Source: a virus. Taken from it: a DNA stretch of 64,000 nt. The DNA lies in IMG/VR virus record IMGVR_UViG_3300023174_000152, positions 1-64,000 of that record. One strand, 5' to 3'. Under the pieces are notes generated by a model that did no database searches, had not been told where the DNA came from, and saw nothing but the letters and a program-made list of their open reading frames with translations. The position numbers were made by a program, and so were the translations under genes. Of this stretch, positions 15,871 to 40,891 are shown piece by piece. Numbering within the stretch: the stretch's first letter is position 1; each line of letters opens with the position of its first letter.

Positions 15871-16119
15871 GTGCAAAAAATAGTATTTCATTCATTCTCC
15901 ATGGGCGACGTAGACGATCCTGAACTCTACGCCGCCTTTCCTTTGGGTGAGTTTATGGCAACAGAAAAAGGCCAATGGATAAAATCTCACTGCCTAGATC
16001 CTTGCTACATAATACGTCCAGATCCAGACTCCTATGGAGTTCGATGTATAGTTTATGGATCTGTGGAAGACAAATCAGCAACGGAGTATTATCTAAGATG
16101 GAATCAAGAAAAATCATAG
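15871..16119 (+). CDS. Conserved hypothetical phage protein
   Basis: An 82-residue protein starting with GTG at 15871 (MQKIVFHSFSMGDVDDPELY), with a downstream ATG at 15901 as an alternative. It has the look of a small family seen in T4-like phages, KIVFHSF-x-x-G-D-V-x-D-P-E-x-Y followed by a C-terminal TEYxL strand (here SATEYYLRWNQ). The function is unknown; sequences of this kind fold as a small alpha/beta domain. Its last 22 bases overlap the epimerase gene. Confidence 0.72.
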   Translation: MQKIVFHSFSMGDVDDPELYAAFPLGEFMATEKGQWIKSHCLDPCYIIRPDPDSYGVRCIVYGSVEDKSATEYYLRWNQEKS

Positions 16120-17075
16120 TAACAGGCGGACTAGGCCTGATTGGACACAATGTAGTTCAGCGGTTAATGGCGCAAGGCCACCAAGTTGCTGTAACAGATA
16201 TCAAAACAAACTACGGTCTAGTTCCGCAGGACGAGCTGGATTATCTAATGTCTGAACGCAGGAAAAAAATACCCGATGCCAGGGTTCATGGCATTGACAT
16301 CGCAGATCAGGATGGTATAGATTGGATGTTTAGAGAATACAAACCCGATACTGTAATACACCTGGCCAGCTTTCCTAGACAAAAAGTAGTCAATGTAAAT
16401 CCTATGATTGGCTCACGTGCTATGAGTGAAGGACTTCTTAATCTACTAGAAGCTTCCAAACGCAATAATGTGTGTAAATTCATATATATTAGTAGCAGTA
16501 TGGTCTATGGAGACTTCACCGATGATGTCACAGAAGATGCTGTTTGCCGTCCACAAGGACAATACGGCATCATGAAACTTGCAGGAGAATGGCTTGTCCG
16601 AGATTATAGTAGGCGTGGTCTTTTTGATCATGTCATTATTCGTCCTTCCGCTGTATACGGAGAATACGATGTTGAAGATCGTGTTGTTTCAAAGTTTCTG
16701 TTGACTGCTATGCGCAACGGTGTGATCAAGGTCAACGGTGCTAACGAAACACTTGACTTCACTTATGTAGAAGATGCCGCTGATGGTATAGTAGCGGCCG
16801 CACTGAGTCATAATACATCAAACAAAACCTACAACATCACCAAAAGTCACAGCCGTACATTGTCGGATGCGGCCAATCTTGCTGTAAAGATTGTAGGCCA
16901 GGGAACCATAGAAGTCAAAGACAAAGATGCAGACTTTCCCAGCCGCGGCGCACTGAACATTGATGCCGCACGTAGAGATTTTGGCTACGATCCCAAGGTA
17001 GATGTAGAAGAAGGCTTCCAAAGGTACTATGAGTGGCTTAACCATTCCGTTTACTGGTCTAAAAAAACAGTATAA
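16098..17075 (+). CDS. NAD-dependent sugar epimerase/dehydratase (extended SDR)
   Basis: A 325-residue protein. The start at 16098 gives IIVTGGLGLIGHNVVQ, the N-terminal Rossmann loop GGLGLIG (10-16), so the ORF further upstream is not used. It has ISSSMVYG (S in 132-134), catalytic Y156 and K160 (QYGIMK) and the usual RPSAVYGEYD strand. Extended SDRs act on nucleotide sugars (4-epimerase, 4,6-dehydratase or 4-reductase). The following aminotransferase suggests it makes the keto sugar that is aminated. The exact reaction is not predictable by eye. Confidence 0.9.
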   Translation: MESRKIIVTGGLGLIGHNVVQRLMAQGHQVAVTDIKTNYGLVPQDELDYLMSERRKKIPDARVHGIDIADQDGIDWMFREYKPDTVIHLASFPRQKVVNVNPMIGSRAMSEGLLNLLEASKRNNVCKFIYISSSMVYGDFTDDVTEDAVCRPQGQYGIMKLAGEWLVRDYSRRGLFDHVIIRPSAVYGEYDVEDRVVSKFLLTAMRNGVIKVNGANETLDFTYVEDAADGIVAAALSHNTSNKTYNITKSHSRTLSDAANLAVKIVGQGTIEVKDKDADFPSRGALNIDAARRDFGYDPKVDVEEGFQRYYEWLNHSVYWSKKTV

Positions 17076-18123
17076 CAACCTCCGGCAGGAGATCTTAGAC
17101 ACCACTGATGAAGTGTTGCGCAGTGGCCAACTCATGAACGGTAACTTCACTGCCGAGTTTGAAAACTGGTTGGCTAAAAAAAACAAAACCAAGTATGCGA
17201 TCTGTGTTCATTCAGGAACTTCTGCGCTGGAAGCTATTGCTGAATATTGCATAGATGATCCTGGTATGCCCGCTCCTCCTCGGGTGTTGATGCCTAGCCT
17301 AACCTATGCGGCCACGGCCAATGCGTTTATACGAGCCGGGTGGGAAGTACACTTCATTGACACTGACCATCACGGTATATTTGATGTTAAAAAAATACCC
17401 GATATCAGTTACCAAGCTGTAGTTTTAGTTGGACTGTATGGTGCCAGCATAGCTCACATGGGTGATATCAGCACATGGCGCCATTGGTCACATAACAACA
17501 AAATCATCATAGAAGATGCCGCACAACATTGGTTGGCCGCTGACTGTGCAAGGATTGGAAACGCGGCTGCCATTTCATTTGATCCTATGAAAAACTTACC
17601 CGCTTATGGCAACGGTGGTGCAGTGGTCACAAACGATAGAGACATGTTTGATTTTGTACGGGCCTGGAGAGACAACGGTAAAAGCACACACAACGAAACA
17701 GGCACCAATAGTCGTATGAGTGAGTTAGATTGTGCTCACATGTTGGTCAAAACAAAATACATCGATACCTGGCAAACTCGTAGATCCAAGATAGCCGGTT
17801 ACTGGCGCGAACGCTTAAACAAAACAGAAATACGTTGTTTGATAGATCAAGATAACTGCCACGATCATGCCTATCATAAGTTTGTGATCGACGTCAACAA
17901 CAGAGATATCTTACAAAAGAATCTTGCCATACGCAAAATAGAAACAAAAGTACATTATACACAGCCGTTACACGAGCTGGGCACCTTCCGCCAGTATCAA
18001 GGACCAGACATCCTTAGCTGTGCGTCGGCGCTGGCTCGACGTGTGCTGACGTTGCCTTTATATCCTGAGCTAACAGATCTCGAAGTTGAGTATGTTATTG
18101 ATCAGGTTCTCGATTGCGTTTAG
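17029..18123 (+). CDS. DegT/DnrJ/EryC1/StrS-type sugar aminotransferase
   Basis: A 364-residue PLP enzyme. It has the N-terminal IPFTGLKKQYNNLRQ, HSGTSALEAI, and EDAAQHW (D163 binds the PLP nitrogen). SFDPMKNLPAYGNGGAV carries the Schiff-base lysine K188. The family transfers an amino group to a keto sugar; members near epimerases make amino-sugar precursors. The start overlaps the epimerase end by 47 bases and the first residues (TIPFTGLK) match the family start. The gene ends convergent with the homing endonuclease, overlapping it by 29 bases. Confidence 0.92.
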   Translation: MSGLTIPFTGLKKQYNNLRQEILDTTDEVLRSGQLMNGNFTAEFENWLAKKNKTKYAICVHSGTSALEAIAEYCIDDPGMPAPPRVLMPSLTYAATANAFIRAGWEVHFIDTDHHGIFDVKKIPDISYQAVVLVGLYGASIAHMGDISTWRHWSHNNKIIIEDAAQHWLAADCARIGNAAAISFDPMKNLPAYGNGGAVVTNDRDMFDFVRAWRDNGKSTHNETGTNSRMSELDCAHMLVKTKYIDTWQTRRSKIAGYWRERLNKTEIRCLIDQDNCHDHAYHKFVIDVNNRDILQKNLAIRKIETKVHYTQPLHELGTFRQYQGPDILSCASALARRVLTLPLYPELTDLEVEYVIDQVLDCV

Positions 18124-18616: not shown

Positions 18617-18627
18617 GCTCTTATTTA

Positions 18628-20229
18628 TTATTGATCTGGTGTTAGATTTCTCTTTAAAAGGGCATAACTGGCCAACCATGACCACTCGTAGCTTTTCTTG
18701 AGCTCATCAAAATCGCCATTGACACTTTCATAGTATTCAACAGCATCCTCTGCACCATAGATTGACCATTGCCCGTTGGGCTGGCCTATGGCCACTGTGA
18801 GCCATTTCTTAAGCCTGTGCTGGCTTTCGATATCTGATTGACCGCGCAGTTTGATACATTCGCGGAAGGCTGTGCGCCAGGCTGACCATTTGGTATCAGC
18901 ATACTCCGCTGTGCCTGACAATATCGGTACCACTTCGTGTTCATCATCTAGTGTAAAGTCTAGTCCACGACCAGGGTTGGCCAAAACCAATCGTTTGTTA
19001 TATGCGATCATGGCTTGGTGGCCATATGTCAGAGTATTGATAGGATTAAACGCATGGAAGATATAATGTTTGGCCGCTTGCATGCGATCAGGCTGCCAGG
19101 ACCAATCAAACTTGGAATCAACTCTGAGTTTAGCAAACACAGCAAAGAACCAATCAGTGGTTGATGCTTCAGCCGCGGCATGATATGCGGCCGCACGACC
19201 GTTGACTCTATCGCTACGCACAAGATTGTTGGGTTTCATATACAATGCTTCTTGTAGCGTGGTCCAGTGTCGTTCGGCATTGGGCTCACCGTTTGAGATA
19301 AACACCACATCTAAGGGTTGGTCTTCTCCTAGCGTCTTATAAGTCTTGTCTATGTTGGGATAATCGTAGAGTTGCTTCTTAAGATAGTTCTTGGCTTCTC
19401 TGGGTACTAGCACACTACTGGCTCCCGGAGTAAGAGGTACTATGGTCTTCATCTTCTCTCGCCATAAGTTAATGGCAGGAGGATTTTCTATTGCACCGTG
19501 TCTGACAAACTGTACCACAGGATACTGGAAATCATGTGCCCATACTGCAGGTACTTGGCTGTCTTGTTCGTGCTTGATGACAGGCACCGGTAGTCTAGGA
19601 ACAGATTTATCTTCTATAAAATGTATGGTATCAAACCATTCAAGCAAGGCCAACTCATTGGTCTTGGCAAGAAAAGATTCTACATTCACATAAAACGTAT
19701 CACCAAACTTTTGTTCGTTGCTGGCAAATACATGCAACATGTCTTGTTGCCATTCTGAAGGATGCCAGGTGAAATCAAAACGACTGTAATCACATACACT
19801 ACTCACTATCCAGACATTTTTGTAAGTACATTTGCTGAGTATTCTTCGTAAGGTTCCTAGATAATCTGAGATATATCTTGTTTTTTCTTTGCAAGCGATG
19901 CCAAGACCGTTGCCGTGATCTATGCCAATGCGTGGCACAGTACCGATGCGTGGCACCACTGGATGATTACGATTGATTTCGCTGACACCTGTTTTGGGTA
20001 TCAAGTATGTTCCACCATTTTCTTGGTGCTGGCTGGGCCATACATGAGTCTGATGACTTTCCCAAGGCACAGGTTCCCACAACCAATCGAAGTGAGAATA
20101 GTCATTGAGCCCATCAACTACCCATAAGTATCTTGTGCGACTAAGTTCGCAAGCATGCTCGATGCTGTCGGCCCGGCGTTCGTGAGGCCAACGATAGGTA
20201 GGAGTGGTTAGGTAAAAGACGTCAAACAT
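18628..20229 (-). CDS. Glycosyltransferase-like protein with three repeated modules
   Basis: A 533-residue protein without signal peptide. Three related stretches recur: DYSHFDWLWEP..WE near residue 44, DYSRFDFTWHPSEW near 145 and SKFDWSWQPDRM near 370. Each is preceded by a short hydrophobic strand (VWVVDG, VWIVSS, WFFAVF) and followed by a HVxxSxxQxxGxTY-like strand. The third module also has VRSDRVNGRAAAYHAAAEAS, which resembles the 309-residue protein at 35179 and GT2-like proteins. A role in sugar transfer is inferred. It starts on the same four bases (CATG) as the divergent gene at 20228. Confidence 0.5.
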   Translation of the reverse strand: MFDVFYLTTPTYRWPHERRADSIEHACELSRTRYLWVVDGLNDYSHFDWLWEPVPWESHQTHVWPSQHQENGGTYLIPKTGVSEINRNHPVVPRIGTVPRIGIDHGNGLGIACKEKTRYISDYLGTLRRILSKCTYKNVWIVSSVCDYSRFDFTWHPSEWQQDMLHVFASNEQKFGDTFYVNVESFLAKTNELALLEWFDTIHFIEDKSVPRLPVPVIKHEQDSQVPAVWAHDFQYPVVQFVRHGAIENPPAINLWREKMKTIVPLTPGASSVLVPREAKNYLKKQLYDYPNIDKTYKTLGEDQPLDVVFISNGEPNAERHWTTLQEALYMKPNNLVRSDRVNGRAAAYHAAAEASTTDWFFAVFAKLRVDSKFDWSWQPDRMQAAKHYIFHAFNPINTLTYGHQAMIAYNKRLVLANPGRGLDFTLDDEHEVVPILSGTAEYADTKWSAWRTAFRECIKLRGQSDIESQHRLKKWLTVAIGQPNGQWSIYGAEDAVEYYESVNGDFDELKKSYEWSWLASYALLKRNLTPDQ

Positions 20230-21277
20230 GATTCGTATCGATGAAATATATTATAACGTATTTGTGTCTGCTTTGCAACACCGACCTCGTGTAGGCTTGC
20301 ATTGGTTTGATCCTTTTGGTTCCACATCATTTGGCGATATATGCAACGTTCCTCGAGTTGACAACATAGCAGAAAAACGACTGGTATTCTGGGATCAAGA
20401 ACCTCTGCACCAAGAACGAGTCAAAGATTTCTTTGATCAGTATATCAAACATTACTGGGGCCCTACCACTATAGTCACTTCTGAATACAATAGCAAGGCA
20501 GTAGACTGGGCATGTGATACTTATGGGCTTGATTGTTCTTACTATTTCTTTCATGCCTGGGCCGCCCTGGATTGGTACAGAGGCTACAATCATACTTTCC
20601 TTTGCAAACCATTCCAAGACAGGCAAATAGAGCGTACATTTTTGTGTCCAAACAATATCATTGGCGGAAAAAGACATCATAGACTGGCATTATTAAACGA
20701 GTTTGTTGATCGGGAACTTATTGACAACAACTTTATCAGTTTTCCTGAACGTTGCCCATATGAAAACAAAACAGTCACAGAGTTATGCCAAGAATACGAT
20801 ATCCCATTGGGACATGTCGAACTGCCATTGATCATTGATCATGGGGCCAATCATGCTGGTAATAGTCATCGTATAGATATGTGGTCGTTGGCTGAAAAAA
20901 GTTTGCTCAATGTAGTAACCGAAACCCTGTATGATGGGCACAGACAACACCTCACTGAAAAAACATTCAAACCCATCGTGATGCAACAGCCATTTGTGTT
21001 GGTATCATGCAAGGGCAGTCTTGAATACCTCAGACGCTATGGATTCAAAACCTTTGGTGAATTCTGGAATGAAGACTACGATGACAAAGACGATGACTTC
21101 CGTATCATTCGCATTGGGAAACTACTAGCCGACATTGATGCATTGAGTATCAAAGAAAAACAACAACTACAGCAACACATGACACCGATAGTTGAACATA
21201 ACTTCAACTGGTTCTATTCCAAAGAGTTTGAAAACTTGTTATGGCACGAACTAACTGATATGATCAAGCAATGGTAA
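20228..21277 (+). CDS. Glycosyltransferase-like protein, (T)EKTFKP family, copy 1
   Basis: A 349-residue protein. The C-terminal half carries VVTETLYDGH, HLTEKTFKPI, QPFVLV, GSLEYLRRYGFKTFGEFWNEDYDD. The same order of motifs occurs in the genes at 21271, 27398 and 32202. An E-K-x-F/Y segment followed by a hydrophobic strand and G-x-L resembles the C-terminal donor site of GT10-type (fucosyltransferase-like) GT-B enzymes, so sugar transfer is a reasonable guess. The N-terminal half is not recognised. Its ATG overlaps the ATG of the divergent gene. Confidence 0.5.
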   Translation: MIRIDEIYYNVFVSALQHRPRVGLHWFDPFGSTSFGDICNVPRVDNIAEKRLVFWDQEPLHQERVKDFFDQYIKHYWGPTTIVTSEYNSKAVDWACDTYGLDCSYYFFHAWAALDWYRGYNHTFLCKPFQDRQIERTFLCPNNIIGGKRHHRLALLNEFVDRELIDNNFISFPERCPYENKTVTELCQEYDIPLGHVELPLIIDHGANHAGNSHRIDMWSLAEKSLLNVVTETLYDGHRQHLTEKTFKPIVMQQPFVLVSCKGSLEYLRRYGFKTFGEFWNEDYDDKDDDFRIIRIGKLLADIDALSIKEKQQLQQHMTPIVEHNFNWFYSKEFENLLWHELTDMIKQW

Positions 21278-22455
21278 CTTTTTGTGTTGACCGTACGGTA
21301 GATGGTCGCCCGTATCCAAATCTAGCTCAGTGGGAGGCTCGCCCTTACACTCCAGAATGGTGGCAGTTCAGTAGGCAATGGCCTTACAGCGAGCCTGTGC
21401 ATTTTTTTGACTATCTTGATCGACACAATGTTGAATATAAAATAGTTGAGTGGACACAAGCAACCAAGCACACCTTGTACCCCATCAGCCTGAGTTATTT
21501 TGATTTCAGTATAAACTGGTTTGAGCTGTTGCCAGTTTTTATTAGAGAAAAGCTCAGAACTAAAAGTTTGACCTTGTGGTTTTTCTACAGTGAAGGTGAC
21601 AACCCACAACGCATACAGGAACATTTACTGGCACAGTTTGCTAATCAAGACATTGATCTTGATCGCATTAAGTTTACCAGTGCAAATAGTTCTGCAGAAT
21701 CTATCAAAAATTTTTCTCACTTTGTTGATGATGAGTGTTTGTATCAACTACGTAATAAAGAATCTCCTATACCGTTTGACCATCAAACGATCCGTAGAAA
21801 AAAATACACAGCATTAGTTAGGACTCACAAATGGTGGCGTGCCACTACCATGGCCAGACTGTGGCGGCAAGGTCTTCACCAGCAAGGGTATTTTTCTTAC
21901 AACACACAAGAGCTTATCAATGACGACGAGCACCTTGACAATCCCATTGAAGTTGATCTATTTGATGGTTTACGTGCTGATACTCATAGATTCCTGGCCA
22001 GCGGTCCATTCCATGCTGATGAGCTAGATTCAGCCACGCACAATCTTTATGCTACTACAGTACATCAACATTTCAATGACAGTTATTTGAACGTGATCTT
22101 GGAAACTCATTTAGATGCTGATCAAAGCGGTGGAACTTTTCTAACTGAAAAAACTTTCAAACCTATCAAGAACTGTCAACCGTTTGTGCTGGTGGCACCA
22201 GCAGGCAGTATCGCACAACTGCAACAGCTGGGCTACCGTACATTTGATCACGTGATCAACCATGCTTACGATCGAGAAATGGATAACACCAAAAGATGGA
22301 ACATGGCCTGTACCGAAATAGAAAGATTAATAACCAACGTTGATCTGCATCAGCTCTATATTGATTGCAAGCAAGACCTACTACACAATCAAGCATTATT
22401 TTTAAGTGACAAGAAGGATCGTTTAAATAGTTTGATCGCAAAGCTCACACAATGA
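21271..22455 (+). CDS. Glycosyltransferase-like protein, (T)EKTFKP family, copy 2
   Basis: A 394-residue protein overlapping copy 1 by 7 bases. It has VILETHLDADQSGGTF, LTEKTFKPIKNCQPFVLV, GSIAQLQQLGYRTFDHVINHAYDR, matching the copy 1 C-terminus. The N-terminal ~170 residues differ (RPYTPEWWQFSRQWP, ELLPVFIREKLRTKSLT). Adjacent, same-strand and overlapping, the two probably arose by duplication and act on the same acceptor. Confidence 0.5.
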   Translation: MVTFCVDRTVDGRPYPNLAQWEARPYTPEWWQFSRQWPYSEPVHFFDYLDRHNVEYKIVEWTQATKHTLYPISLSYFDFSINWFELLPVFIREKLRTKSLTLWFFYSEGDNPQRIQEHLLAQFANQDIDLDRIKFTSANSSAESIKNFSHFVDDECLYQLRNKESPIPFDHQTIRRKKYTALVRTHKWWRATTMARLWRQGLHQQGYFSYNTQELINDDEHLDNPIEVDLFDGLRADTHRFLASGPFHADELDSATHNLYATTVHQHFNDSYLNVILETHLDADQSGGTFLTEKTFKPIKNCQPFVLVAPAGSIAQLQQLGYRTFDHVINHAYDREMDNTKRWNMACTEIERLITNVDLHQLYIDCKQDLLHNQALFLSDKKDRLNSLIAKLTQ

Positions 22456-23480
22456 CAAATATCGTAAACAGTTATACCAGTTGGCAACCTCTTGAAGAGG
22501 TCATAGTAGGTCGCGCCTACGACCCGGATTACTTTGATTTCATCGATGACTCCCAAGTCAGGAATCAGCTACAACAGATTCTAGCAGAAACTGCTGAAGA
22601 TTTAAACAATCTTCAACGCACCATAGAAAGTTATGGTGCTACAGTTTTGAGGCCCGAGTTACCCAATCGAGATCAGTTCCAAACTTGGCAAACGTCTGGA
22701 GAAGGTGCTCCTCTCCCACCTCTTACACCAAGAGATTGGCAAATCACGCTGGGTCAAAAACTTCTGCGTGTCCTGCCTGTTGTAGAACTCGATGACATCT
22801 GTGCTCGCTATGGCGATCAAGTCATAGACCCGCACGGTGGTAAATGGGATCCCGACTGCATACTAAATGGTGCATCAGCTTCGTGTATTGTGCGTGTGGG
22901 TCGTGATGTGTTTTTTGACAACTCAGACTTTTTAAAACCCGAACAAACACGTTGGATCATAGACAATGTACTGGGTCCAGAGTATCGAGTACACGAAGCC
23001 ATCACCGACGGACATGGAGATGCTGTGTTTGCAATTCTAAAGCCTGGTGTCATCTTATCAAGTAAACATGATGTTAACTTAGATCTTGCCGGAGACTTTC
23101 CTGGATGGGATGTATGCAAGATATGGGACAGCTCGATCTGGGCCGCTATGGAAGTTGGCAAGTTCAAAGAAGAAAACTTCAACGGTGCTTGGTATGTGCA
23201 AGGGCAGACCCCCACTGAACAGTTTACTAAGTTTGTAGATACCTATCTAAAGAGTTGGACTGGATTTGTCAGCGAAACCGTTTTTGATGTCAACTGTCTT
23301 GTGTTAGATGAAAGTCATGTAATCTTTAGTGCTTATAACAAAGAAGTGTTTGACTTTTGTAAACGACATCGGATTGAACCTATTATCTCTGAATTGCGTC
23401 ACAGTTATTTCTGGGATGGCGGTGTTAGTTGTTGCACACAAGACATACGTCGACGTGGCGGTCTAGAGACTTACCTCTAA
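22452..23480 (+). CDS. Amidinotransferase
   Basis: A 342-residue protein of the glycine/inosamine amidinotransferase fold. It keeps the catalytic residues in place: D156 in FFDNSDF, H188 in TDGHGDAVF and the nucleophile cysteine in GGVSCCTQDIRRRG (C327 or C328). That C-terminal motif is the family hallmark. The reaction moves an amidino group from arginine to an amine, giving a guanidino product; in the streptomycin pathway the acceptor is an amino-cyclitol phosphate. Here the DegT-type aminotransferase could supply the amine. It is coupled to copy 2 by ATGA, and its stop overlaps the stop of the carbamoyltransferase on the other strand. Confidence 0.85.
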   Translation: MTNIVNSYTSWQPLEEVIVGRAYDPDYFDFIDDSQVRNQLQQILAETAEDLNNLQRTIESYGATVLRPELPNRDQFQTWQTSGEGAPLPPLTPRDWQITLGQKLLRVLPVVELDDICARYGDQVIDPHGGKWDPDCILNGASASCIVRVGRDVFFDNSDFLKPEQTRWIIDNVLGPEYRVHEAITDGHGDAVFAILKPGVILSSKHDVNLDLAGDFPGWDVCKIWDSSIWAAMEVGKFKEENFNGAWYVQGQTPTEQFTKFVDTYLKSWTGFVSETVFDVNCLVLDESHVIFSAYNKEVFDFCKRHRIEPIISELRHSYFWDGGVSCCTQDIRRRGGLETYL

Positions 23481-24964: not shown

Positions 24965-25062
24965 TTATAGATAAATGGATCTCTTTTGCGTAGCTCTTTG
25001 AGTTTTTTGCGATAACGTATTTCTAGTTTGATCCTGTTGATCAAGTTGCGTAACCATTTCAT
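24961..25062 (-). CDS. Tiny basic protein
   Basis: A 33-residue ORF that fits exactly by ATGA overlaps on both sides (upstream stop at 25059, downstream start at 24964). GGAGG lies just before its start. It is a single basic amphipathic helix (NLINRIKLEIRYRKKL, then KRDPFIYK). A very similar ending, K-R-D-P-F-I-Y-K, is what I recall from small proteins of T4-like aquatic phages, so it is probably a real conserved gene. The function is unknown. Confidence 0.7.
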   Translation of the reverse strand: MKWLRNLINRIKLEIRYRKKLKELRKRDPFIYK

Positions 25063-29508: not shown

Positions 29509-30860
29509 GCTTTTAAAATCCTATGTGTTCGGCCTGGGGGTAACTGAGCATCTTCTTTCCTATATTGATATATCTCTTGGAGCTCTGGAACCACAGACAT
29601 CAAACTTTCATTCCTCGCCCAGTCTAGATCTTCTACTGTTCGCCAAAACTCTGGCAGCAAATGGCTGTTGTCCGTAGACATCATGAAAGCAACAGCGGCT
29701 TGGAACCCACCGACTGCACGTTGGATAGGATCTCTAGGCATCAGCCACTCAATGTGTTCTTCGAACTCTTTCTTGAATCTTAGTTTAATATCCATTGGCA
29801 ATAGGTCAATGCGATAGTTCATAGGTCCTTGTAGGATATTGAGATTGAAGTCTTTGGGTTCAATGAACCCTTGGTCAATCATGTAACGATGATATTTTAC
29901 AAAGTTCCAGATATTCATTAAACTCAGTGTGGGACTGATCATAAAATCAATGTGTGGGCATTCGCGTTTGATGTCTCGTATGTTTTGTTCCACATCAGCC
30001 CACTTGGTTCCTGAACGTATAACTGCGGCACGCTCACCCATGTCATCTAAACTAGCAGCCACACAAACATTGGGAAAGTGTTTCCAAAGATCTATTACAC
30101 TTTCACGTTTAAATCGTAGTTCAGTTAAGTTAGTGTTGTAGATCAAACGTACATTGGTATTGCCTTTTTCAATCAAGAGCTTGAGAATACGATTATGCTC
30201 TTCCATGATCAAAGGTTCGCCACCGGCAAAATAGATCTGATCTAGGTGTGGGACATGCTCTTGCATTTGTTCCCAAACGTCTTCTTCGTGGCGGCCAGCA
30301 AACTGTACACGAGGGCGAAGTTCTTTGCCCCACAGTTTGATGTCATCATCGTACCAACGACTTGAAAAGATTGATCCACAACTGCGACATTTCAAGTTAC
30401 AGATGTTAGAAAAACGCACATCCCAATAGTGTAATCGCATGTCAGGTAACGAACCATCGGGCAATGTTTGATCAACTAGGTCAATGTGTTGCCCAAAGTT
30501 CTTATTTGAGTTATTGCGCATGGATGCAAATCCTGCTGATTCTTGTTCGTAGCAGTCGCCGCATTCCTTGCAGGGCAGATCACTTAGCATGTTGCGGCGC
30601 ATTTGTCGCATAGGCTCGTCGTTCCAGATTTCCTTCATTGACTTTTCTTTGAAGTTGCCCACAGGATGTTCGGCCTTGCCCAAACAACAAGGATATGCAC
30701 GACCATCGGGCCAAGCATGCAAGTGTATCCAAGGAATGATACAGAACGTATCTGAGTGCATGAGCCTGTGTTGTTGTTTTTCGGTCAGATGTTCCAGAGG
30801 AATCCAACTGGGAACACGGTCTTTCCAGTTATAGTTACTAAGATTACTTTTCTTTGTCAT
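29505..30860 (-). CDS. Radical SAM enzyme 3
   Basis: A 451-residue protein. The ATG at 30860 overlaps the stop of the upstream gene (ATGA) and is preferred to an alternative upstream start. Site CNLKCRSC (C154, C158, C161); GGEP follows (YFAGGEPLI). N-terminal Cys-rich segment: C40 (TFCIIPWIHLHAWPDG), CC near 58-59, then CKEC and C103. It shows the WPDG turn typical of SPASM-like sequences. It probably acts with enzymes 2 and 4, the three being translated as coupled neighbours. Confidence 0.85.
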   Translation of the reverse strand: MTKKSNLSNYNWKDRVPSWIPLEHLTEKQQHRLMHSDTFCIIPWIHLHAWPDGRAYPCCLGKAEHPVGNFKEKSMKEIWNDEPMRQMRRNMLSDLPCKECGDCYEQESAGFASMRNNSNKNFGQHIDLVDQTLPDGSLPDMRLHYWDVRFSNICNLKCRSCGSIFSSRWYDDDIKLWGKELRPRVQFAGRHEEDVWEQMQEHVPHLDQIYFAGGEPLIMEEHNRILKLLIEKGNTNVRLIYNTNLTELRFKRESVIDLWKHFPNVCVAASLDDMGERAAVIRSGTKWADVEQNIRDIKRECPHIDFMISPTLSLMNIWNFVKYHRYMIDQGFIEPKDFNLNILQGPMNYRIDLLPMDIKLRFKKEFEEHIEWLMPRDPIQRAVGGFQAAVAFMMSTDNSHLLPEFWRTVEDLDWARNESLMSVVPELQEIYQYRKEDAQLPPGRTHRILKA

Positions 30861-32209
30861 AGTGATCGATACCAAGAAGCCAACATTGGAAATGTGGCAC
30901 AAAAATCTTTTCCTCTACGCTGATCGTATTGCTCATGGAACTTTTTAAAATCATTATACAAGCTCGCACGATCAAAGGTGTCTGAGTGTGGTGTTTTGAC
31001 CACGTCTAAATAATCAATCAAGCGTTGAACTTGATTGAGTTCCATTTGATGTAAGAATTCATTGTCCTTGTTTTCATCGTACCACTCCTGTAGTTGTTGT
31101 CCGCGAGCTTGACGTATGTCTTCCGGCAATACCAGTGGGCTTTGAAAACTTGGAAAGCGTAATATGTTCAATGTAAATGTTGGAAAGTCTCGACCATATT
31201 GTTTTTTAAACATCATCATGATGTCAAGGAAATCAGTTAAACTTTCCAAACAAAGAGCGTTAATAGTACACATTACATGTAGGCCCCGTAGACGTTTGCT
31301 ACCAGCCAGCATGTGCATATTGGTCATCCATTGTGTCCAATCTAATCCATCTCGAATATATTCAGCATGCCCATTCACGCTTTCGTTGCTGGTGTACAGA
31401 TCTAATGTAACACCTTCTGCACGATCCAATAGCTTGAGCACATCTTCTGTGGTCATGCCCAAGTTAGAGTTAATGGCTAGTCGTGTATCACTTTTGCCGC
31501 GATTCTCTTTGAACCAGTCCAACAGTTTCCAAGTGTAACCGCTCATCAATGGTTCACCGCCAGTTATTCGGAGTTCTTTGAGTGTTCTGTGGAGGTCAGA
31601 CTCCCACCAAGCGAAAAATGCGTCCACATAAGGATTCCGATCATTGAATGTATAGAGCTGACTGCTATCATGAGCGTGAGTAAAATGATTACGCCCGTCT
31701 GATACCAAGCCATGGTATGGACCGTGTTTGTTGATGTCTCGGACCCAGGTGCTACTAAAAGCAGGATTACAATAAGAACAAGCGAATTGGCAAGTCCTAT
31801 CAAAGGCGATTTCCAAGGTCTGTAGATCCACGTCTTGATCGCTGGCAGTATTGAAAGCATGATTTAAATCCTCGTCTGAGTATATAACAGTTTTATAGAC
31901 ACGGTCAGATATGTTATCGCGTCCGATATCTTCAATCTTCCAGCAATATTCACAGCCTGCTGGTCGTTGTCCCTGTTGCATCATTGCACGTTCTGATTTC
32001 TTTTTAGGGGTATTGTGCAAGGCCTTGGGATTGGCTTCTACTTCTTCTACACTTACTTTGTGTGGCAATGGGTGATGGCAACTTGTGGTCATGCCCGATC
32101 CTAACCAAATGGTAGCGTTGTACCATTTAGCTCCACAAAAGCTGGCCGACTTGATGTCAATGACTCTGCGTTTGTATTCTAAGTCTGTTTCGTTGTCTAT
32201 TCTAGGCAT
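30857..32209 (-). CDS. Radical SAM enzyme 4
   Basis: A 450-residue protein. The ATG at 32209 is used; a TTG further upstream would start inside the neighbour. Site CQFACSYC (C140, C144, C147), with RITGGEPLM later. Its N-terminal Cys pattern (FCGAKW...TSCHHPLPHK...CEYCW) is like enzyme 5 and different from 1 to 3, so 4 and 5 form a second subgroup. It ends IYDQRRGKDF-like, as does enzyme 5 (NEHDQRRGTRFLKVFP). The substrate is unknown. Confidence 0.82.
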   Translation of the reverse strand: MPRIDNETDLEYKRRVIDIKSASFCGAKWYNATIWLGSGMTTSCHHPLPHKVSVEEVEANPKALHNTPKKKSERAMMQQGQRPAGCEYCWKIEDIGRDNISDRVYKTVIYSDEDLNHAFNTASDQDVDLQTLEIAFDRTCQFACSYCNPAFSSTWVRDINKHGPYHGLVSDGRNHFTHAHDSSQLYTFNDRNPYVDAFFAWWESDLHRTLKELRITGGEPLMSGYTWKLLDWFKENRGKSDTRLAINSNLGMTTEDVLKLLDRAEGVTLDLYTSNESVNGHAEYIRDGLDWTQWMTNMHMLAGSKRLRGLHVMCTINALCLESLTDFLDIMMMFKKQYGRDFPTFTLNILRFPSFQSPLVLPEDIRQARGQQLQEWYDENKDNEFLHQMELNQVQRLIDYLDVVKTPHSDTFDRASLYNDFKKFHEQYDQRRGKDFCATFPMLASWYRSL

Positions 32210-33212
32210 TGACAAAATCTTTCATTTGTTGTGTAAATGTATCACGTTGATTACTATGTATCGCAAATGCATGGCGCAGATTATATAAACGTGTTTCTTT
32301 GGATTCTTCCCAAAACTTTGGCAGATCTTGTTTGACCAGCCAGGCCACTTCATGCACTAGACGTTGTATTCTTTCTTGCCCATCTTCAATGTCATCAAAT
32401 GATTCGTCGATCCATTGACCGTATGTCTGGAAACCAAGACGTTTTATGTCTCGATAAAACCCGCGATTGGCACATACCAAGAAAGGATGTGTAGCCAACA
32501 CAGGTTTGTAAAACTTTTCCGTCCTAAAACTCGAAGGATGTTCAAACACAGTTTCTGTGACCAAAGTAAACCAAGTGTCAAGGTGCTGTGCTGGAACTAT
32601 GACACCATCGATCCATCCAGGATTTTCTACATCGTATCCTGGAGGTAAAGTTTGTGTTGGTACTTTGTGTTCGGAGTATATTCGATTAAAATCAGGATGG
32701 CCCCAGGTGATGTCTGCATCGTGATTACACCAGAGTGCGCGATCAAGAAGTTGTTGCTGTTGTAAAAGATGTATAAGATACTGTCTATGTGGTCTTAGTT
32801 TCCGATTGGTGAACAAAAAACTATATTTTCTCGAATGTCTATTGTAATCCATGAGTGGAACACCATAGTTTTGGCTACCTAAAGTAGCGGACAGAAAATG
32901 TTCTGAATTTAGATTGACTATGTCGTTGGGTGCATCTCCACCAGTGATCCAACGTATCTGTCCTGATTGCATTTTAGACAAATAGTGTGGACTAGATGCT
33001 ATGTGCCATTGCGTTATTACACTTTCATCTGTCTTTTCAATCACTGCACGACCGCCCATGGACAGCATGTCATATACTCTAGGCCACTGTTGCACAAATG
33101 TTTTTAAACTCATGACATAGATATCCGCAGTCAATGCTAGATTTCCTGTTTCGATCTCATTGTCAGGTCTGAGATAGTTTAGGGCTACACCTGGTTCAAC
33201 TATGATTCGCAT
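32202..33212 (-). CDS. Glycosyltransferase-like protein, EKFYKP variant, copy 4
   Basis: A 336-residue protein. The ATG at 33212 (MRIIVEPGVALNYL) is preferred to a start 27 bases further upstream. The C-terminal half has LVTETVFEH, FRTEKFYKPVLATHPFLV, GFYRDIKRLGFQTYGQWIDESFDD, matching the other copies. The N-terminal part is distinct. It lies between radical SAM enzymes 4 and 5. Confidence 0.5.
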   Translation of the reverse strand: MRIIVEPGVALNYLRPDNEIETGNLALTADIYVMSLKTFVQQWPRVYDMLSMGGRAVIEKTDESVITQWHIASSPHYLSKMQSGQIRWITGGDAPNDIVNLNSEHFLSATLGSQNYGVPLMDYNRHSRKYSFLFTNRKLRPHRQYLIHLLQQQQLLDRALWCNHDADITWGHPDFNRIYSEHKVPTQTLPPGYDVENPGWIDGVIVPAQHLDTWFTLVTETVFEHPSSFRTEKFYKPVLATHPFLVCANRGFYRDIKRLGFQTYGQWIDESFDDIEDGQERIQRLVHEVAWLVKQDLPKFWEESKETRLYNLRHAFAIHSNQRDTFTQQMKDFVNA

Positions 33213-34599
33213 AATAACCGCATTGAGTCCACCACTCAACCATTTCAGGAAAAACTTTTAGAAATCTTGTACCTCTACGTTGATCGTGTTCATTAAAGAA
33301 TCTATAAAAATCTGCTTGTTGTCTGCGTACATAGTCTGGATCTAGTTTGGCACCATCACGCATCCAAGCTATGTCTCTGTCAAGCCTACTGAGTTCATAG
33401 TCTTTGAATCCTTTGAATCTTTTTTCTTCGGTCTCGATATTTTTTAACATCCATGCCCAGGTTTTTTCTAGTTCGTCGGCATAGCTCTCAGGTAACAGTT
33501 GCATACTTTGCCATGTTGGTGTGCGTAACACAGGAGTATCAAACCATACACGTTGATAGGTCTTTGAATATATCTGTCTTAGCCCCAGTATAGCTACCAT
33601 GAGATCACCAAAACTGGTCACTGATAGGTTATTCATCGTGATAATAAAAGTGATAGAACTGCGACTGGGTACCTCTGTTAGGAACTGGTTTACTCTATCC
33701 CATAGCAATCTAAAATCAAGTCCGTTGCGAATGTATTCGGCCTTGTCCATCCAGGCATCAAGACTCACATATTGCATGAAGTGTTCGACTTTTTCACCCT
33801 CACACAGCATCTTGACATAACCCAAATATCGTTGCCAAAGTTTTTCTTCCACTGAGAAGTTGCTTGTAACATTGAGATGTAATCGAGGATTGTGATTAGT
33901 CAGCACATAATCAAACACACGGTAGGTGTTTTTATCCATCATTGGTTCACCACCAGTCATACGGAAGTGTTCTAGTTCTGGATAGAGCCGAGGCCACCAA
34001 CTCCAAAAAGCGTCAAGGTATGGATTATCATCTCGGGCAGGTATAGGCCTACGCTCACCAACAAAATACTCAGGGGCATTGTGAGGTACACTAGTAGGGA
34101 AAGCGCCGAAAGTCTCGGCTTCTTGCATCCATGAACTACTAAACTGTGGACTACAGTAACTACATTTAAGATTGCAAGCATTACTAAAATTAACTTCAAC
34201 GTAACTGGGTAAAACATCTTCATCTCCTGTAGAGTTTACAATGCTATCAAAATCCTTGGCGGCCCATGGCTCGCCTGATCTATAATGTCTATCGCTGAGC
34301 TTGCCATTGTCTTCCATGGTCCAACAATAACTGCATTCACTGGGTCTTGTTCCTGTCAGCATGAGTCGGCGCTGTTCTTTCTTGTGTTCAGTGTTATGAA
34401 TGCCCGACGGGGATCTCTGGATATCTTCGATGCGTATTTTATGCAGTGGGGGGTGATAGCATGAGTTGGTGTGACCTGTGGTCAGGTGCAAACTTACTTG
34501 TTTCCACTTGGCCAAACACATGCTGGGACTCACCGAATCCAGTTTCTCTTTCATTATCTCAGCGTCACTGAGAAACTTTGATTTGAAATCTGTAGTCAC
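33196..34599 (-). CDS. Radical SAM enzyme 5
   Basis: A 467-residue protein starting with GTG at 34599, which has AAAGG 7 bases upstream and makes the N-terminus align with enzyme 4; a longer TTG start overlaps the SGNH gene and is less likely. Site CNLKCSYC (C142, C146, C149), then MTGGEPMM. N-terminal Cys-rich part: C28 (SMCLAKW), C47 (TNSCYHP), CSYCW near 90. It belongs to the enzyme 4 subgroup by sequence and by its DQRRGxxF end. Confidence 0.82.
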   Translation of the reverse strand: MTTDFKSKFLSDAEIMKEKLDSVSPSMCLAKWKQVSLHLTTGHTNSCYHPPLHKIRIEDIQRSPSGIHNTEHKKEQRRLMLTGTRPSECSYCWTMEDNGKLSDRHYRSGEPWAAKDFDSIVNSTGDEDVLPSYVEVNFSNACNLKCSYCSPQFSSSWMQEAETFGAFPTSVPHNAPEYFVGERRPIPARDDNPYLDAFWSWWPRLYPELEHFRMTGGEPMMDKNTYRVFDYVLTNHNPRLHLNVTSNFSVEEKLWQRYLGYVKMLCEGEKVEHFMQYVSLDAWMDKAEYIRNGLDFRLLWDRVNQFLTEVPSRSSITFIITMNNLSVTSFGDLMVAILGLRQIYSKTYQRVWFDTPVLRTPTWQSMQLLPESYADELEKTWAWMLKNIETEEKRFKGFKDYELSRLDRDIAWMRDGAKLDPDYVRRQQADFYRFFNEHDQRRGTRFLKVFPEMVEWWTQCGYYANHS

Positions 34600-34612
34600 T
34601 TCGTCGCCTTTG

Positions 34613-35185
34613 TTATTTGCCAACTTGATCTCCCAAATAATCAAATAGTTTTATCATTCCTTCTTTGTTAAGATGGCCATCAGGTAACCTGTCTAAAGGT
34701 CTTATATAGGGATAATGTATAGTTGATTTAACATTTCTTTGTTCCCAAGAAAAAGCAATCACCTCTTTGTTTTGTTCTAGCAAAAATGTTATTAAACAAT
34801 CAACTAGCATGTCGCTGAGTTGATCACAATAAGGATGCCCAAATACTGTATAAAAATATTTGTAAACTTCTAAATGTGCCTTGTCGAGTTCTTCTGGAGT
34901 TAAATCAAATCCTTTTCCATGAGATCCTGCAAAGAAGTCAAGATCCTGATCATTGTATTTGATACCAAATCGAGAACTGAATGTAAACCCTAGAACAAAA
35001 ACGTCATGCTCTGAAAAGTTTTGATACGCATCAAATACTATTGCTAGATTGCTTTTTCCTGGGCGAGATTTATCTTTGACATTATACCCACCGATGGTTT
35101 GATATAAACTACCTAAAGATTGATCTCGGGGCAAACCTTGACCGTATGTCATACTACATCCGTCAAGATAAAGTTTTTTTACCAT
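34613..35185 (-). CDS. SGNH-hydrolase-like protein
   Basis: A 190-residue protein with the first block LDGCSMTYGQG (S11 at the nucleophile position) and the last block DGHLNKEG (D169, H171) of SGNH/GDSL esterases. Members remove or add acyl groups on sugars and lipids, or act as acetyltransferases. In phages, very similar LDGCS-type proteins occur next to glycan genes. The middle oxyanion residues (G and N) are not obvious. It is coupled to the GT2-like gene upstream by a 7-base overlap. Confidence 0.75.
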   Translation of the reverse strand: MVKKLYLDGCSMTYGQGLPRDQSLGSLYQTIGGYNVKDKSRPGKSNLAIVFDAYQNFSEHDVFVLGFTFSSRFGIKYNDQDLDFFAGSHGKGFDLTPEELDKAHLEVYKYFYTVFGHPYCDQLSDMLVDCLITFLLEQNKEVIAFSWEQRNVKSTIHYPYIRPLDRLPDGHLNKEGMIKLFDYLGDQVGK

Positions 35186-36108
35186 CCTTCTTGACTCCGT
35201 ATAACATCAATCTCTCTGGTCATTACGCCGCGGTTATGCCAGTTTGATCTGTAATGATCTTTGAAGAATGCACTTTGAAACGGAGGCATAAACGCCATTG
35301 GTAATCCTAGCTGTGTGAGCAAAGGTTCATGATACTGATCAATGAGTTCAGCTGGTGCCCTGGGTGCTGCCACGGCTTCCCAGATATTTTTTAAACAGTC
35401 AAAGTTCTGCACTTCTCTGTGGTCCCATTCGCTGAGCATGGTCATGAATGTGCCTTGCCGTGCACCGGCTATGGCCCAGAATCCATTTTCTACATCGCAT
35501 CCCACGTTGTGCCAGATACTGAGATGATCGAAGTTGCGTTTGTGTACACGATCTTTAAATTCTGCCACTGTGGGTTTCTTGCCACGATCTAGACACATCT
35601 TTACACCTTCACGGAACCCTGCTCGCCAGGCCTGGAACGGCGAACCATTGGGATAGGTTGTTGAGTAACAATCATACATGGGCCAATACAGTGGATCAAA
35701 GCAAAACTCTACTTCGGTTTCTGTACGACCGTCGGTATTTTCGTGTGTTTTCATACGCCACACAAACTCGCGTGTCCAAGAACTCAATCCGCCATTACCA
35801 TACATCAGGCCATTGACATGATTTCGAGCTCGCCAACGATACACCGCCTGCTCCCATTCTTCGTTGGGATATTCTAATGTAAGGTTGAAAAACTTTTCAT
35901 CAGGTAAGTTGTCACCGTCGATGAGTATAAAGCGTTCTGTGTCACTGGCATCAGCCGCGGCTTTGTGTGCGGCGTCTGATCCTTTGACTCCATCTACCCG
36001 TTTGGCCCAAGGCACCATGTTTTTGATTCGCACCCAGAACTCTTCTTTCTGTGGCTCATCGTAGCTCAAATAAATGCAATCTAAATCTGCTATGTCAATC
36101 TGATTCAT
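35179..36108 (-). CDS. GT2-like glycosyltransferase-like protein
   Basis: A 309-residue protein. IADLDCIYLSYDEPQ, VKGSDAAHKAAADAS and FILIDGDNLPD (D64-G-D66) give the layout of a GT-A family 2 glycosyltransferase with its DxD metal site. VKGSDAAHKAAADAS is close to VNGRAAAYHAAAEAS in the three-module protein at 18628, so the two share a domain. It overlaps the 114-residue gene by 14 bases. Confidence 0.6.
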   Translation of the reverse strand: MNQIDIADLDCIYLSYDEPQKEEFWVRIKNMVPWAKRVDGVKGSDAAHKAAADASDTERFILIDGDNLPDEKFFNLTLEYPNEEWEQAVYRWRARNHVNGLMYGNGGLSSWTREFVWRMKTHENTDGRTETEVEFCFDPLYWPMYDCYSTTYPNGSPFQAWRAGFREGVKMCLDRGKKPTVAEFKDRVHKRNFDHLSIWHNVGCDVENGFWAIAGARQGTFMTMLSEWDHREVQNFDCLKNIWEAVAAPRAPAELIDQYHEPLLTQLGLPMAFMPPFQSAFFKDHYRSNWHNRGVMTREIDVIRSQEGW

Positions 36109-36439
36109 ATGTTGTTTTTACTTCCCAATGTTGTTTGTTTTCTGCGTTGTTGTCAACAACGATAGTGATATCTTTAGGATGGCAAGGTGTTCCTTGGTCC
36201 GCAGGAGCCAGCTTCCAACTGGCAGGGTGATTTAACTTTACTATTTTGCCATCTTTGATTCGGATATCAAATCGTTGTTGGTCGAATGTCAATCGATCAA
36301 TCACTATAAACGTGCCAGGTAAATCTTCCATGCTATAGTGCAACACGTTGCCTGACTCATCGTGATACAGTCTAAACTCTTGCTTGACTTCTGGTTGTTC
36401 CCAGTTGTGTGCGTTAGCGGCCTGCCAAAAGGCGTCCAT
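36095..36439 (-). CDS. Small conserved-looking phage protein
   Basis: A 114-residue protein of unknown function. It has a strand-rich sequence (YHDESGNVLHYSMEDLPGTFIVI, RFDIRIKDGKIVKLNHPASW) with a DNNAENKQHWEVKT C-terminus. Proteins of this size and style accompany phage glycosyltransferase-like genes. Its end overlaps the gene at 35179, and its start lies within the end of the gene at 36414 (26-base overlap), which indicates tight coupling. Confidence 0.6.
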   Translation of the reverse strand: MDAFWQAANAHNWEQPEVKQEFRLYHDESGNVLHYSMEDLPGTFIVIDRLTFDQQRFDIRIKDGKIVKLNHPASWKLAPADQGTPCHPKDITIVVDNNAENKQHWEVKTTYESD

Positions 36440-37244
36440 AGTGTTCCTCTAAATCTTGGGCAAATGATTTGTGATGATAGTGTACAATGCCCTGTTGCTC
36501 CACTGTGTTGATGCGAAGACGTCCTTCTATCAACTCCCAAACCATTTCTGCTGTCCACGGTCTGGCATCGGTTTTTAAAAAGTTTACAGCTGGTTTCATG
36601 TGTGTCATAGCGGGCCAGGTATAGGGTAATGTAACTCTTTCGACCCCCATGTACTTGGCTGCCATGGCATAGATCATGTCTGTGTTGGCAGATATCGAAT
36701 CACAATATTTCAATGTTTGTCTTGCTGTAGACCACTGTTCAAAAAAACTTCTCACAAGATAAAAAAACTCTGCGGCAGTTTGACTCAGTCTCCAATATGT
36801 CACAGCATTATACACATCAGGCAAATCGTTGTCATCAAACAGTCTGCGATACACTCTACATTCGCTGGTCTCATTGAGATAGTTTTTTATCCCACGGCTG
36901 ATTACAACATCTCTATGTTCGAACCAAGACCACCAATGATCTATGTTTTCAACTATCACAGTATCGGCTTCCAGTTTGATAGTTTCTCGGAAAGGTGAAG
37001 CATGAAATGCTTGCCAATCGTTGCTGAGTTTCCAGGTGCCGTTGGGATCTTGATCTCCGTAAGGAAAAGATCTAACAATATCAAACACCGGATCATGTTC
37101 GTCGGCGTCCGTGACCAAACATATCTTGCAGTCGGGCATCCACCAACGTAGACTTTTGGCCAAAGCTCTAGCGCAGGCCACGTAATCATCCTGTCCGTTG
37201 TTTGACGCTAAGATCAGATAGCCACGTTCAAATTCTACTGCCAC
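36414..37244 (-). CDS. GT-A-like glycosyltransferase, member 1
   Basis: A 276-residue protein starting with GTG, with a GGGG tract 7 bases upstream. It has an N-terminal Rossmann-like strand (RGYLILASNNG), KICLVTD at 40-46 and a short ETIKLEADTVIVEN motif with E92-A-D94 in the DxD position. It matches member 2 at 37228 in order and spacing (SPFRETIKLEAD vs SPYNETIVLDTD), so they are paralogues. It probably transfers a sugar from a nucleotide sugar. Confidence 0.65.
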   Translation of the reverse strand: MAVEFERGYLILASNNGQDDYVACARALAKSLRWWMPDCKICLVTDADEHDPVFDIVRSFPYGDQDPNGTWKLSNDWQAFHASPFRETIKLEADTVIVENIDHWWSWFEHRDVVISRGIKNYLNETSECRVYRRLFDDNDLPDVYNAVTYWRLSQTAAEFFYLVRSFFEQWSTARQTLKYCDSISANTDMIYAMAAKYMGVERVTLPYTWPAMTHMKPAVNFLKTDARPWTAEMVWELIEGRLRINTVEQQGIVHYHHKSFAQDLEEHYGRLLAGR

Positions 37245-38049
37245 AGATTTTCCCCAAGTCAGGTTTGTTCATTACATGAAGATCGCAATCACGCAAGATC
37301 ATTCTAAAGTGCTTGGCATGATTGTCGACCATGCGCACATAGTTGAGTTGGAACACATCTTCTTCTAGTTGATTTAAATACACGTCATAAAAACTAGTAA
37401 ACAAAGGCCAAGGTATGTTTGGCACAGCGTTGGGCAAATGTCCATGAACTGTGTTAAGTGCTATGCTGATTGCATAGTCATTGCGATAAGGCTCTTGACT
37501 GAACTTATAGAGCCGACTGTAGTGATACCAGTTATCTTCGATCATGTTCATCATATCAAACACAGATTCGGACAATCTTGTGCGGCGGAAATATAGCACA
37601 GTGGCCCACCACATAGGAAACTCAGTTTCTCCAAATCTTGTATCTCTAGCAAAGTTTCTGCGATCAGTGACATCTAACACATCTCTGTGGCAAAGCAAAT
37701 CCTGCCCGCAATCAAATAAAACTTTTAATCGATCACAAGAAACAATGTAATCTGTGTCTAGCACTATGGTTTCATTGTATGGTGATACATCAAATGCACG
37801 ACAGCGTCCTCGATTAAACCATGTGGCCGACGAGTCAGCATTCATGTGGTCAAACTTGCGTGTGCCACCTGATTTACTCTCACGTATGATCACTTGATCA
37901 AACATGGATGTATCGTTGGGTGCTTGATCAGTGACCAAGGTAACTGGCAGCCCAAGATGCCTGGTGATACGAGGTGCAGACCACTGAGCTTGACTCACGT
38001 AATCTACCTTGTCATTGTTAAAGGCAAATAAAACAGCGCCACGTGTCAT
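37228..38049 (-). CDS. GT-A-like glycosyltransferase, member 2
   Basis: A 273-residue protein with LPVTLVTD at 34-41 and ETIVLDTDYIV, where DTD (98-100) is the metal and nucleotide-sugar site. It is paralogous to member 1 (17-base overlap). No membrane anchor or signal peptide, so it acts in the cytosol. It is coupled to the 101-residue gene upstream (ATGA). Confidence 0.68.
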   Translation of the reverse strand: MTRGAVLFAFNNDKVDYVSQAQWSAPRITRHLGLPVTLVTDQAPNDTSMFDQVIIRESKSGGTRKFDHMNADSSATWFNRGRCRAFDVSPYNETIVLDTDYIVSCDRLKVLFDCGQDLLCHRDVLDVTDRRNFARDTRFGETEFPMWWATVLYFRRTRLSESVFDMMNMIEDNWYHYSRLYKFSQEPYRNDYAISIALNTVHGHLPNAVPNIPWPLFTSFYDVYLNQLEEDVFQLNYVRMVDNHAKHFRMILRDCDLHVMNKPDLGKICGSRI

Positions 38050-38351
38050 CTATTTTTGCTCAACGTTTCTAACTCTATCATCCAAGCAGTGAGTTGTTCT
38101 TGCCAGCGATCATGCGCTAGATGTTGTAATTCTAATACATTGATTTTTACTGGTGTGTCATACATGTCTAACAAGACAGCATCTTCTGTGGGGCAGGATT
38201 GCAATAAAGCCAATAGTTCTGGCCCGGCACACCACATGCCGCCGCCGTGGGCAAAGGTCATTTTGCTTTGGTATTTTTCTTTGAGCAGTTTTTTCTGCGT
38301 GGCGTGATCAAATCGGCTTTTGATCTCTTGTGTTAGTTTTTCTGTGTCCAT
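38046..38351 (-). CDS. Hypothetical phage protein
   Basis: A 101-residue protein. The second ATG (38351), 8 bases after GGAG, is preferred to one at 38357. KMTFAHGGGMWCAGPELLALL and VLLDMYDTPVKINVLEL resemble a small phage family with a F-A-H-x-G-G-M-F/W pattern whose role is unknown. It is the first gene of the long minus-strand enzyme operon and sits just after a promoter. Confidence 0.65.
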   Translation of the reverse strand: MDTEKLTQEIKSRFDHATQKKLLKEKYQSKMTFAHGGGMWCAGPELLALLQSCPTEDAVLLDMYDTPVKINVLELQHLAHDRWQEQLTAWMIELETLSKNR

Positions 38352-38362
38352 GGTCATACTCC

Positions 38363-38407: not shown

Positions 38408-38428
38408 TTTGTTTGCCAATATTACCTA

Positions 38429-39400: not shown

Positions 39401-39410
39401 TGCTTAATCC

Positions 39411-40844: not shown

Positions 40845-40866
40845 CTGTTCTACTCCGCTTTAGAGA

Positions 40867-40874: not shown

Positions 40875-40891
40875 ATATCTTAATATATCCA

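Follow-up and report, generated by a model that had tools for sequence, protein, structure and literature searches.

A radical SAM-rich block of predicted glycan-assembly genes beside the tail fibres of an uncultured jumbo phage

Gene content and layout of the block

The linear IMG/VR virus record IMGVR_UViG_3300023174_000152 is 72,065 bases long in total, and its positions 1 to 64,000 (64 kb, hereafter the window) were analyzed here. Between 16098 and 38357, from the start of an epimerase-like gene to the operon end at h103, the window carries a block of enzyme genes that probably builds a decorated glycan and that adjoins tail-fibre genes. The gene list was checked by open reading frames, Pfam, NCBIfam and PHROGs. 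An original prediction, made from the sequence alone, had named an epimerase, a DegT aminotransferase, an amidinotransferase, a NodU-type carbamoyltransferase, five radical S-adenosylmethionine (SAM) enzymes, four glycosyltransferase paralogs, GT-A-like proteins and an SGNH-hydrolase-like protein; all of these are present where it placed them, the start at 16098 is kept, and the operon runs slightly beyond the predicted end at 38049, to 38357.

The five radical SAM proteins, rS1 (26110–27408), rS2 (28300–29508), rS3 (29505–30902), rS4 (30857–32215) and rS5 (33196–34644), are all encoded on the minus strand and are members of a single family, NF033640, scoring 282, 336, 411, 298 and 321 bits, respectively; the curated cut-off of 170 bits is passed by 5/5. 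Their auxiliary-cluster domain lies N-terminal to the radical SAM core and resembles the twitch domain of BtrN; they are referred to below as N-twitch. The CX3CX2C motif is intact in all homologs examined (64, 63, 55, 40 and 29 sequences; 64/64 for rS1), and the N-terminal auxiliary cysteines are invariant in the radical SAM proteins. Records of the related phage clade carry 5 to 19 NF033640 genes each, with up to 19 in one 320-kb phage record. In a 344-kb relative, the gp47 recombination gene sits between two more N-twitch radical SAM genes (L088, G017 74291–78115). A viperin-type defence function was rejected; matches to pVip were weak and far under the N-twitch scores.

Four paralogs, GTp1 (20228–21277, plus strand), GTp2 (21271–22455, plus; TEKTFKPI motif, aligned in family A2), GTp3 (27398–28303, minus; a variable slot, recognized by alignment and gene order) and GTp4 (32202–33239, minus; alignment and downstream-region comparison), have no significant Pfam match. 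The AlphaFold2 model of GTp1 (pLDDT 92) has a GT-B fold, and the nearest solved fold found by Foldseek is T4 beta-glucosyltransferase (E 2e-5), a fold-level match at TM 0.47, with SdgB, TarM and SenB also among the neighbors. Judged from this model, the four are predicted glycosyltransferases of a GT-B family without a Pfam model or an assigned CAZy family. GT2a (18628–20229, minus), a repeated glycosyltransferase-like protein recognized by motif only and without a Pfam match, begins head to head with GTp1 on a common CATG (20227–20230), with zero intergenic DNA. This in-frame overlap is retained in 69/71 relatives, with the core TCAAACATG in the examples inspected.

The remaining genes of this kind are all on the minus strand: GT2b (35179–36108; GT-A-like, DGDN motif, 69–78% identity in 13 relatives), GTA1 (36414–37244; GT-A-like, LEADTV, phrog_1903 at 2e-8, function unassigned) and GTA2 (37228–38049; GT-A-like, LDTDYIV and DxD). 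GTA1, GTA2, the small conserved protein h114 (36095–36439, minus) and h103 (38046–38357, minus) occur in 19/19 downstream regions. The SGNH-hydrolase-like gene (34613–35185, minus; GCSxTxG and HxNxxG motifs by eye) occurs in 1/19, and its product has no Pfam or PHROG match. The GT2/GT-A-like and SGNH-like labels are motif-based, profile searches having given nothing significant; the A4 profile of GTA2 weakly resembles glycogenin (E 0.4). The conserved protein h366 (25059–26159, minus), which has no assigned function, gave a confident model (pLDDT 85) with no match in the PDB. Its matches in BFVD are phage proteins lacking assigned function, from uncultured phages and Atu_ph07. No membrane protein is predicted within the block.

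The epim product (16098–17075, plus; PF01370, 8e-43), a short-chain dehydrogenase/reductase (SDR), retains YxxxK and TGGxGxxG and lacks the Asp-Glu pair of the 4,6-dehydratases; because SSSMVYGD replaces the STDEVYGD of dTDP-glucose 4,6-dehydratase, it is taken to be sugar-nucleotide epimerase-like. The DegT/DnrJ/EryC1/StrS aminotransferase (17029–18123, plus; PF01041, 2e-62) has 7b0d, QdtB and WbpE as its best PDB matches, with scyllo-inositol aminotransferase among its relatives. The amidinotransferase AMT (22452–23480, plus) has no Pfam match, and by profile it matches the structures of AGAT, StrB, HsvA and SxtG (best 5.9e-19). Its residues D95, H188, D190 and C327 are invariant in 19 sequences and correspond to D170, H303, D305 and C407 of human AGAT. 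AMT is filed as AGAT-like, a predicted amidinotransferase. The NodU-type O-carbamoyltransferase (23477–24964, minus; PF16861 2e-51, PF02543 1e-35, phrog_1601 8e-96) has a Kae1-like N domain and a YrdC-like C domain, and the HHxxH histidines H109, H110 and H113 are invariant across homologs; its nearest solved relatives are NovN, GdmN and TobZ.

The minus-strand genes from h103, the first of the series, to h366 overlap end to start, which suggests a single operon. A terminator-like hairpin (38363–38408, minus) sits between the tail-fibre gene tf1 and h103, and a sigma70-like -10 element, TATAAT, lies 20 nt beyond it in the window; in relatives a TATAAT-like -10 usually lies 16–20 nt past the hairpin. 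Since both elements lie between tf1 and h103, the block probably has its own predicted sigma70-type promoter and is not transcribed by simple read-through from the tail operon. Across the tf1–h103 region, promoter-like matches do not outnumber those in shuffled sequence. The hairpin shows compensatory changes, with 97.7% of its cells paired and a covariation of 0.43 versus 0.13 in shuffled and at most 0.16 in slid alignments. These rows were hand-picked among records showing the hairpin (11 of about 20) and so speak for the structure there, not for its universality; in L208, L209, L212 and L213 the hairpin is different or absent.

Conservation, linkage and exchange among related phages

Beyond the hairpin the window continues, on the minus strand, with the tail-fibre-like genes tf1, tf2 and tf3 (38429–41497) and then with a giant 4854-aa structural protein and a gp6-like baseplate wedge (41667–59641). 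T4-type baseplate and recombination genes follow the block on the same contig, bearing out the earlier view that the block is phage-encoded. Over 98–99% of its length, the gp6-like protein shares 33% identity with baseplate proteins of 121Q and Atu_ph07, and on this sequence evidence the block DNA is that of a phage, whose baseplate genes are nearest to those of jumbo phages such as these. No isolate of the clade was found in the phage collection.

Relatives of AMT are found in at least 112 candidate stretches of IMG/VR, and in at least 250 by profile, on contigs up to 364 kb; 80 were kept in each case, and all of the records compared are possibly fragments. AMT is 75–93% identical across the kept relatives, and block gene order and strand are conserved over 80 related loci. 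Taking only loci whose contigs extend as far as needed, AMT occurs together with NodU in 63/63, h366 in 62/62, rS1 in 61/61, GT2a in 61/61, GTp1 in 70/70, GTp2 in 65/71, the epimerase in 55/58 and DegT in 54/59. The co-occurrence of amidinotransferase, carbamoyltransferase and radical SAM genes that had been proposed as a check is therefore near total. The loci counted form one clade, and the linkage partly reflects descent. Divergence within the clade is large, with median identities of 68% for NodU, 72% for rS1 and about 53% for GTp1 and GTp2. For the window and the relative closest to it, dN/dS is about 0.05 (0.04–0.06 where computable), with dS near saturation. Gene order conserved over 80 loci together with such low ratios argues that the block is not a chance assemblage.

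A comparison of the window with the 344-kb relative puts the block at the conservation level of core genes. AMT (81%), rS3 (80%), rS1 (73%), h366 (67%) and NodU (66%) match gp46 (78%) and gp47 (74%) in conservation and mostly exceed the baseplate proteins gp6 (63%) and gp25 (60%). A recent moron was rejected because the block is conserved at this core-gene level. A cellular source was sought by scanning genome contigs with h366, which returned one phage-like contig from a metagenome-assembled genome (MAG). In that MAG's phylum, NF033640 at E <= 1e-60 was found in 2/245 genomes (G127 and G206); the G127 contig is itself a jumbo phage, and the G206 match, read over 4 kb only, is unplaced.

The position of the block is fixed. 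Both in the 344-kb relative and in 19 other records it is followed by GT2b-h114-GTA1-GTA2-h103 and then by the same tail-fibre genes, which adjoin the block end in 20/20 records read further. The product of tf1 contains 26–34% Ser+Thr in 19/19 relatives measured, as against 13–19% in most other structural proteins. Synteny with tail and baseplate genes in 20 records led us to reject mis-assembly or host origin.

The content of the slot can be exchanged. G127:C57, a diverged 335-kb contig from a MAG bin, shares the giant and gp6 genes with the window, with HNH/h230 to the left of the slot and GT2b-GTA1-GTA2-h103 and tail fibres to the right. Within it are a UDP-glucose/GDP-mannose dehydrogenase, a hexapeptide acyltransferase, a DegT fragment, an ATP-grasp protein, 2-oxoglutarate (2OG) oxygenases and a desaturase, along with further radical SAM proteins and radical SAM–glycosyltransferase pairs; rS5-type and GTp genes are retained, and AMT, NodU and h366 were not found in this slot. 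Read from gene content, this exchange is what a polysaccharide locus shows; it connects the radical SAM and GTp genes with work on sugars and would favor a glycan island over a peptide pathway. Independent support for this connection comes from Vibrio phage K566 and the marine virus AG-345-D19, both described below. At the left edge of the alternative island lies a protein with a Major-tropism-determinant N-domain (Mtd_N; L189 984–2522).

Comparison with known systems

Gram-negative bacteria carry strain-variable flagellin-glycosylation islands in which soluble sugar-nucleotide, aminotransferase and glycosyltransferase genes lie beside the structural gene whose product is modified, without a flippase. 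The block is similar in its soluble enzymes, exchangeable content and position beside a candidate acceptor gene, again with no flippase found. It differs in being phage-borne and located by tail fibres, in having radical SAM, AMT and NodU genes, and in showing no Maf-type transferase, and its acceptor is putative.

Sugar-gene clusters and carbamoyltransferases are already known from phages; Nol-like carbamoyltransferases are found in 134 phage records. The cyanophage lipopolysaccharide (LPS)/glycan clusters, exemplified by S-SCSM2R, are phage-borne sugar genes with a carbamoyltransferase, and S-SCSM2R has a glycine-amidinotransferase homolog, adjoining KdsA and KdsB. This homolog, however, is 31% identical to AMT, 2OG oxygenases and Kdo genes replace the N-twitch radical SAM genes, and the glycosyltransferases belong to other families. 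The cultured Vibrio jumbo phages K566 and K567 have five N-twitch radical SAM genes, four alternating with glycosyltransferases (GT8/GT4-like in K566), but only 2/5 pass the NF033640 cut-off, and no AMT, NodU, DegT or GTp gene was found in the stretch read. The marine single-cell virus AG-345-D19 (MH319727) carries, inside a stretch of 8 kb, AMT, NodU (49% identical), an N-twitch radical SAM gene and two SGNH-like genes; its AMT is 28% identical, and GTp and h366 were not found. Other contigs of that sample carry T4-type replication genes. The moraphages (PMC12619734) were set aside as another lineage for which amidino, carbamoyl and radical SAM genes are not mentioned.

The earlier statement that no such combination is known in a phage thus stands, as far as searched, for the full set, whereas a smaller AMT–NodU–radical SAM–SGNH set exists in AG-345-D19. 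We found no report in the open-access literature of amidino, carbamoyl and multiple radical SAM chemistry together in a phage; subscription papers lay outside the search and priority is uncertain. Within the collections and literature searched, the combination, the number of radical SAM genes, the Pfam-less GT-B family and the core status are new. A global-ocean catalog of auxiliary metabolic genes deliberately removed contigs with glycosyltransferase/epimerase "lipopolysaccharide islands" (PMC11360552), and such islands may have been overlooked as a result.

A proposed glycan-assembly island and its possible acceptor

The following route is the one we infer, in each reaction, in step order, in acceptor and in benefit. 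The epimerase and DegT enzymes would convert host sugar nucleotides to an amino sugar, the GT-B and GT-A type glycosyltransferases would join sugars into a chain, AMT would add an amidino group and NodU a carbamoyl group, and the five N-twitch radical SAM enzymes, whose genes lie among those of glycosyltransferases, would decorate the product by radical chemistry. Attachment would most likely take place in the cytoplasm, with the Ser/Thr-rich tail-fibre protein of the phage itself as acceptor, and the island would then act like a bacterial flagellin-glycosylation island placed by its acceptor's gene. We hold this whole reading, an exchangeable island of soluble glycan-assembly enzymes acting on the phage's own tail fibre, tentatively and at somewhat less than even odds. 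A more speculative proposal is a new type of virus-made glycan, in which N-twitch radical SAM enzymes, each with a partner glycosyltransferase, edit sugars stepwise toward a guanidino/carbamoyl glycan that would be a core trait, vertically inherited, of this large jumbo-phage clade.

The choice of acceptor lies mainly between the virion and the host envelope. No flippase of family PF01943 was found in 20 related records, which, with the lack of a membrane protein in the block, favors a cytoplasmic acceptor; together with the adjoining Ser/Thr-rich tf1, these negatives place the tail fibre or virion, itself a tentative choice, slightly ahead. Alternatively, and with a real if smaller chance of being right, the enzymes could act on a precursor of LPS or another envelope glycan of a Gram-negative host and so hide the infected cell from additional phages or from binding of debris. 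The radical SAM–GT8 cluster of K566 is followed by the lipid A genes PagP and LpxC, the S-SCSM2R homolog sits beside Kdo genes, the block probably has its own promoter, and a fixed slot with swapped content resembles an O-antigen locus. A Gram-negative porin (PF13609, 4e-36) is also encoded in this phage, adjoining TctA, the membrane subunit of a tripartite tricarboxylate transporter (PF01970, 4e-61; window 3709–6262). The porin is above cut-off in 7/20 clade records (the window and 6/19 others) and TctA in 3/20, and since the phage carries both upstream, they point to a Gram-negative host. The missing flippase and membrane-bound transferase count against an envelope target, LpxC was found in K566 alone, and the constant adjacency to tail fibres is left unexplained.

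Several observations also weigh against a tail-fibre glycan. The acceptor protein is a candidate, and Ser/Thr-rich composition is commonplace among tail fibres. In Atu_ph07, homologs of tf2 and tf3 lie beside the giant protein, yet no block lies beside them, and the K566 cluster does not adjoin tail fibres; the probable separate promoter likewise loosens the tie to the tail operon. The pathway itself has gaps, in that the block showed neither a nucleotidyltransferase nor a 4,6-dehydratase, and in 19/19 AMT relatives, the S-SCSM2R homolog included, no acid aligns to D254, the third triad acid of human AGAT, although a shifted acid may take its place. Of the original idea of a complete tailoring line for a decorated sugar, the glycan tailoring is therefore supported and the completeness is not. 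Mutated active sites, which had been named as a possible objection, were not found: the key motifs (radical SAM CX3CX2C, the NodU histidines and the AMT Cys, His and two Asp) are intact, with D254 as the exception.

Readings without a glycan on a protein or envelope are weaker. Release of a free guanidino or carbamoyl metabolite, or a RiPP-like peptide, aimed at the host or at competitors is unlikely. The aminoglycoside-type comparison made at the outset is fair at the family level: AMT, NodU and the N-terminal radical SAM domain have StrB, TobZ/NovN/GdmN and BtrN, respectively, among their relatives, a scyllo-inositol aminotransferase is among the DegT relatives, and radical SAM enzymes of the SPASM/twitch type frequently have peptides as substrates. 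The radical SAM domain order is permuted, however, with the auxiliary cluster N-terminal, and the block lacks a cyclitol pathway; a Pfam search covering the block only gave no match to an aminocyclitol-forming enzyme. A precursor peptide, a cyclitol synthase, a carrier and an exporter were likewise not seen there; at least six glycosyltransferase-like genes also count against this reading, as do the UDP-sugar dehydrogenase and the acyltransferase of the alternative slot content. Slightly less probable again is DNA hypermodification, in which modified bases would be the substrate of the glycosyltransferases, with the remaining enzymes decorating the sugar. Phage DNA-glycan clusters have reportedly been described (Pyle 2024), GTp1 has its fold-level resemblance to the T4 enzyme, and a ThyX-type thymidylate synthase homolog lies directly upstream of the block (15177–15851; conserved in 55/80 loci); that resemblance goes no deeper than fold, and cytosine-C5 methyltransferase (PF00145) and ThyA-type synthase (PF00303) are absent from 14 records that gave positive controls and that may be fragments. 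Finally, single genes resemble host polysaccharide genes, as a mis-binned host locus would, but block and tail/baseplate genes share one contig in 20/20 records and the block genes have diverged as much as core genes, making this extremely improbable.

If glycan assembly on the tail fibre is correct, a large, common, uncultured group of jumbo phages from aquatic habitats spends about 20 of its core genes on a single unusual glycan. The block would then offer a means of testing the purpose of phage-made glycans, and it would supply dozens of radical SAM enzymes to explore along with a new family of glycosyltransferases. Farther upstream, the window encodes a PAPS-reductase/PP-loop-like protein (7158–8393; phrog_424, 5e-4), a relative of which lies on L105 beside TctA and DegT.

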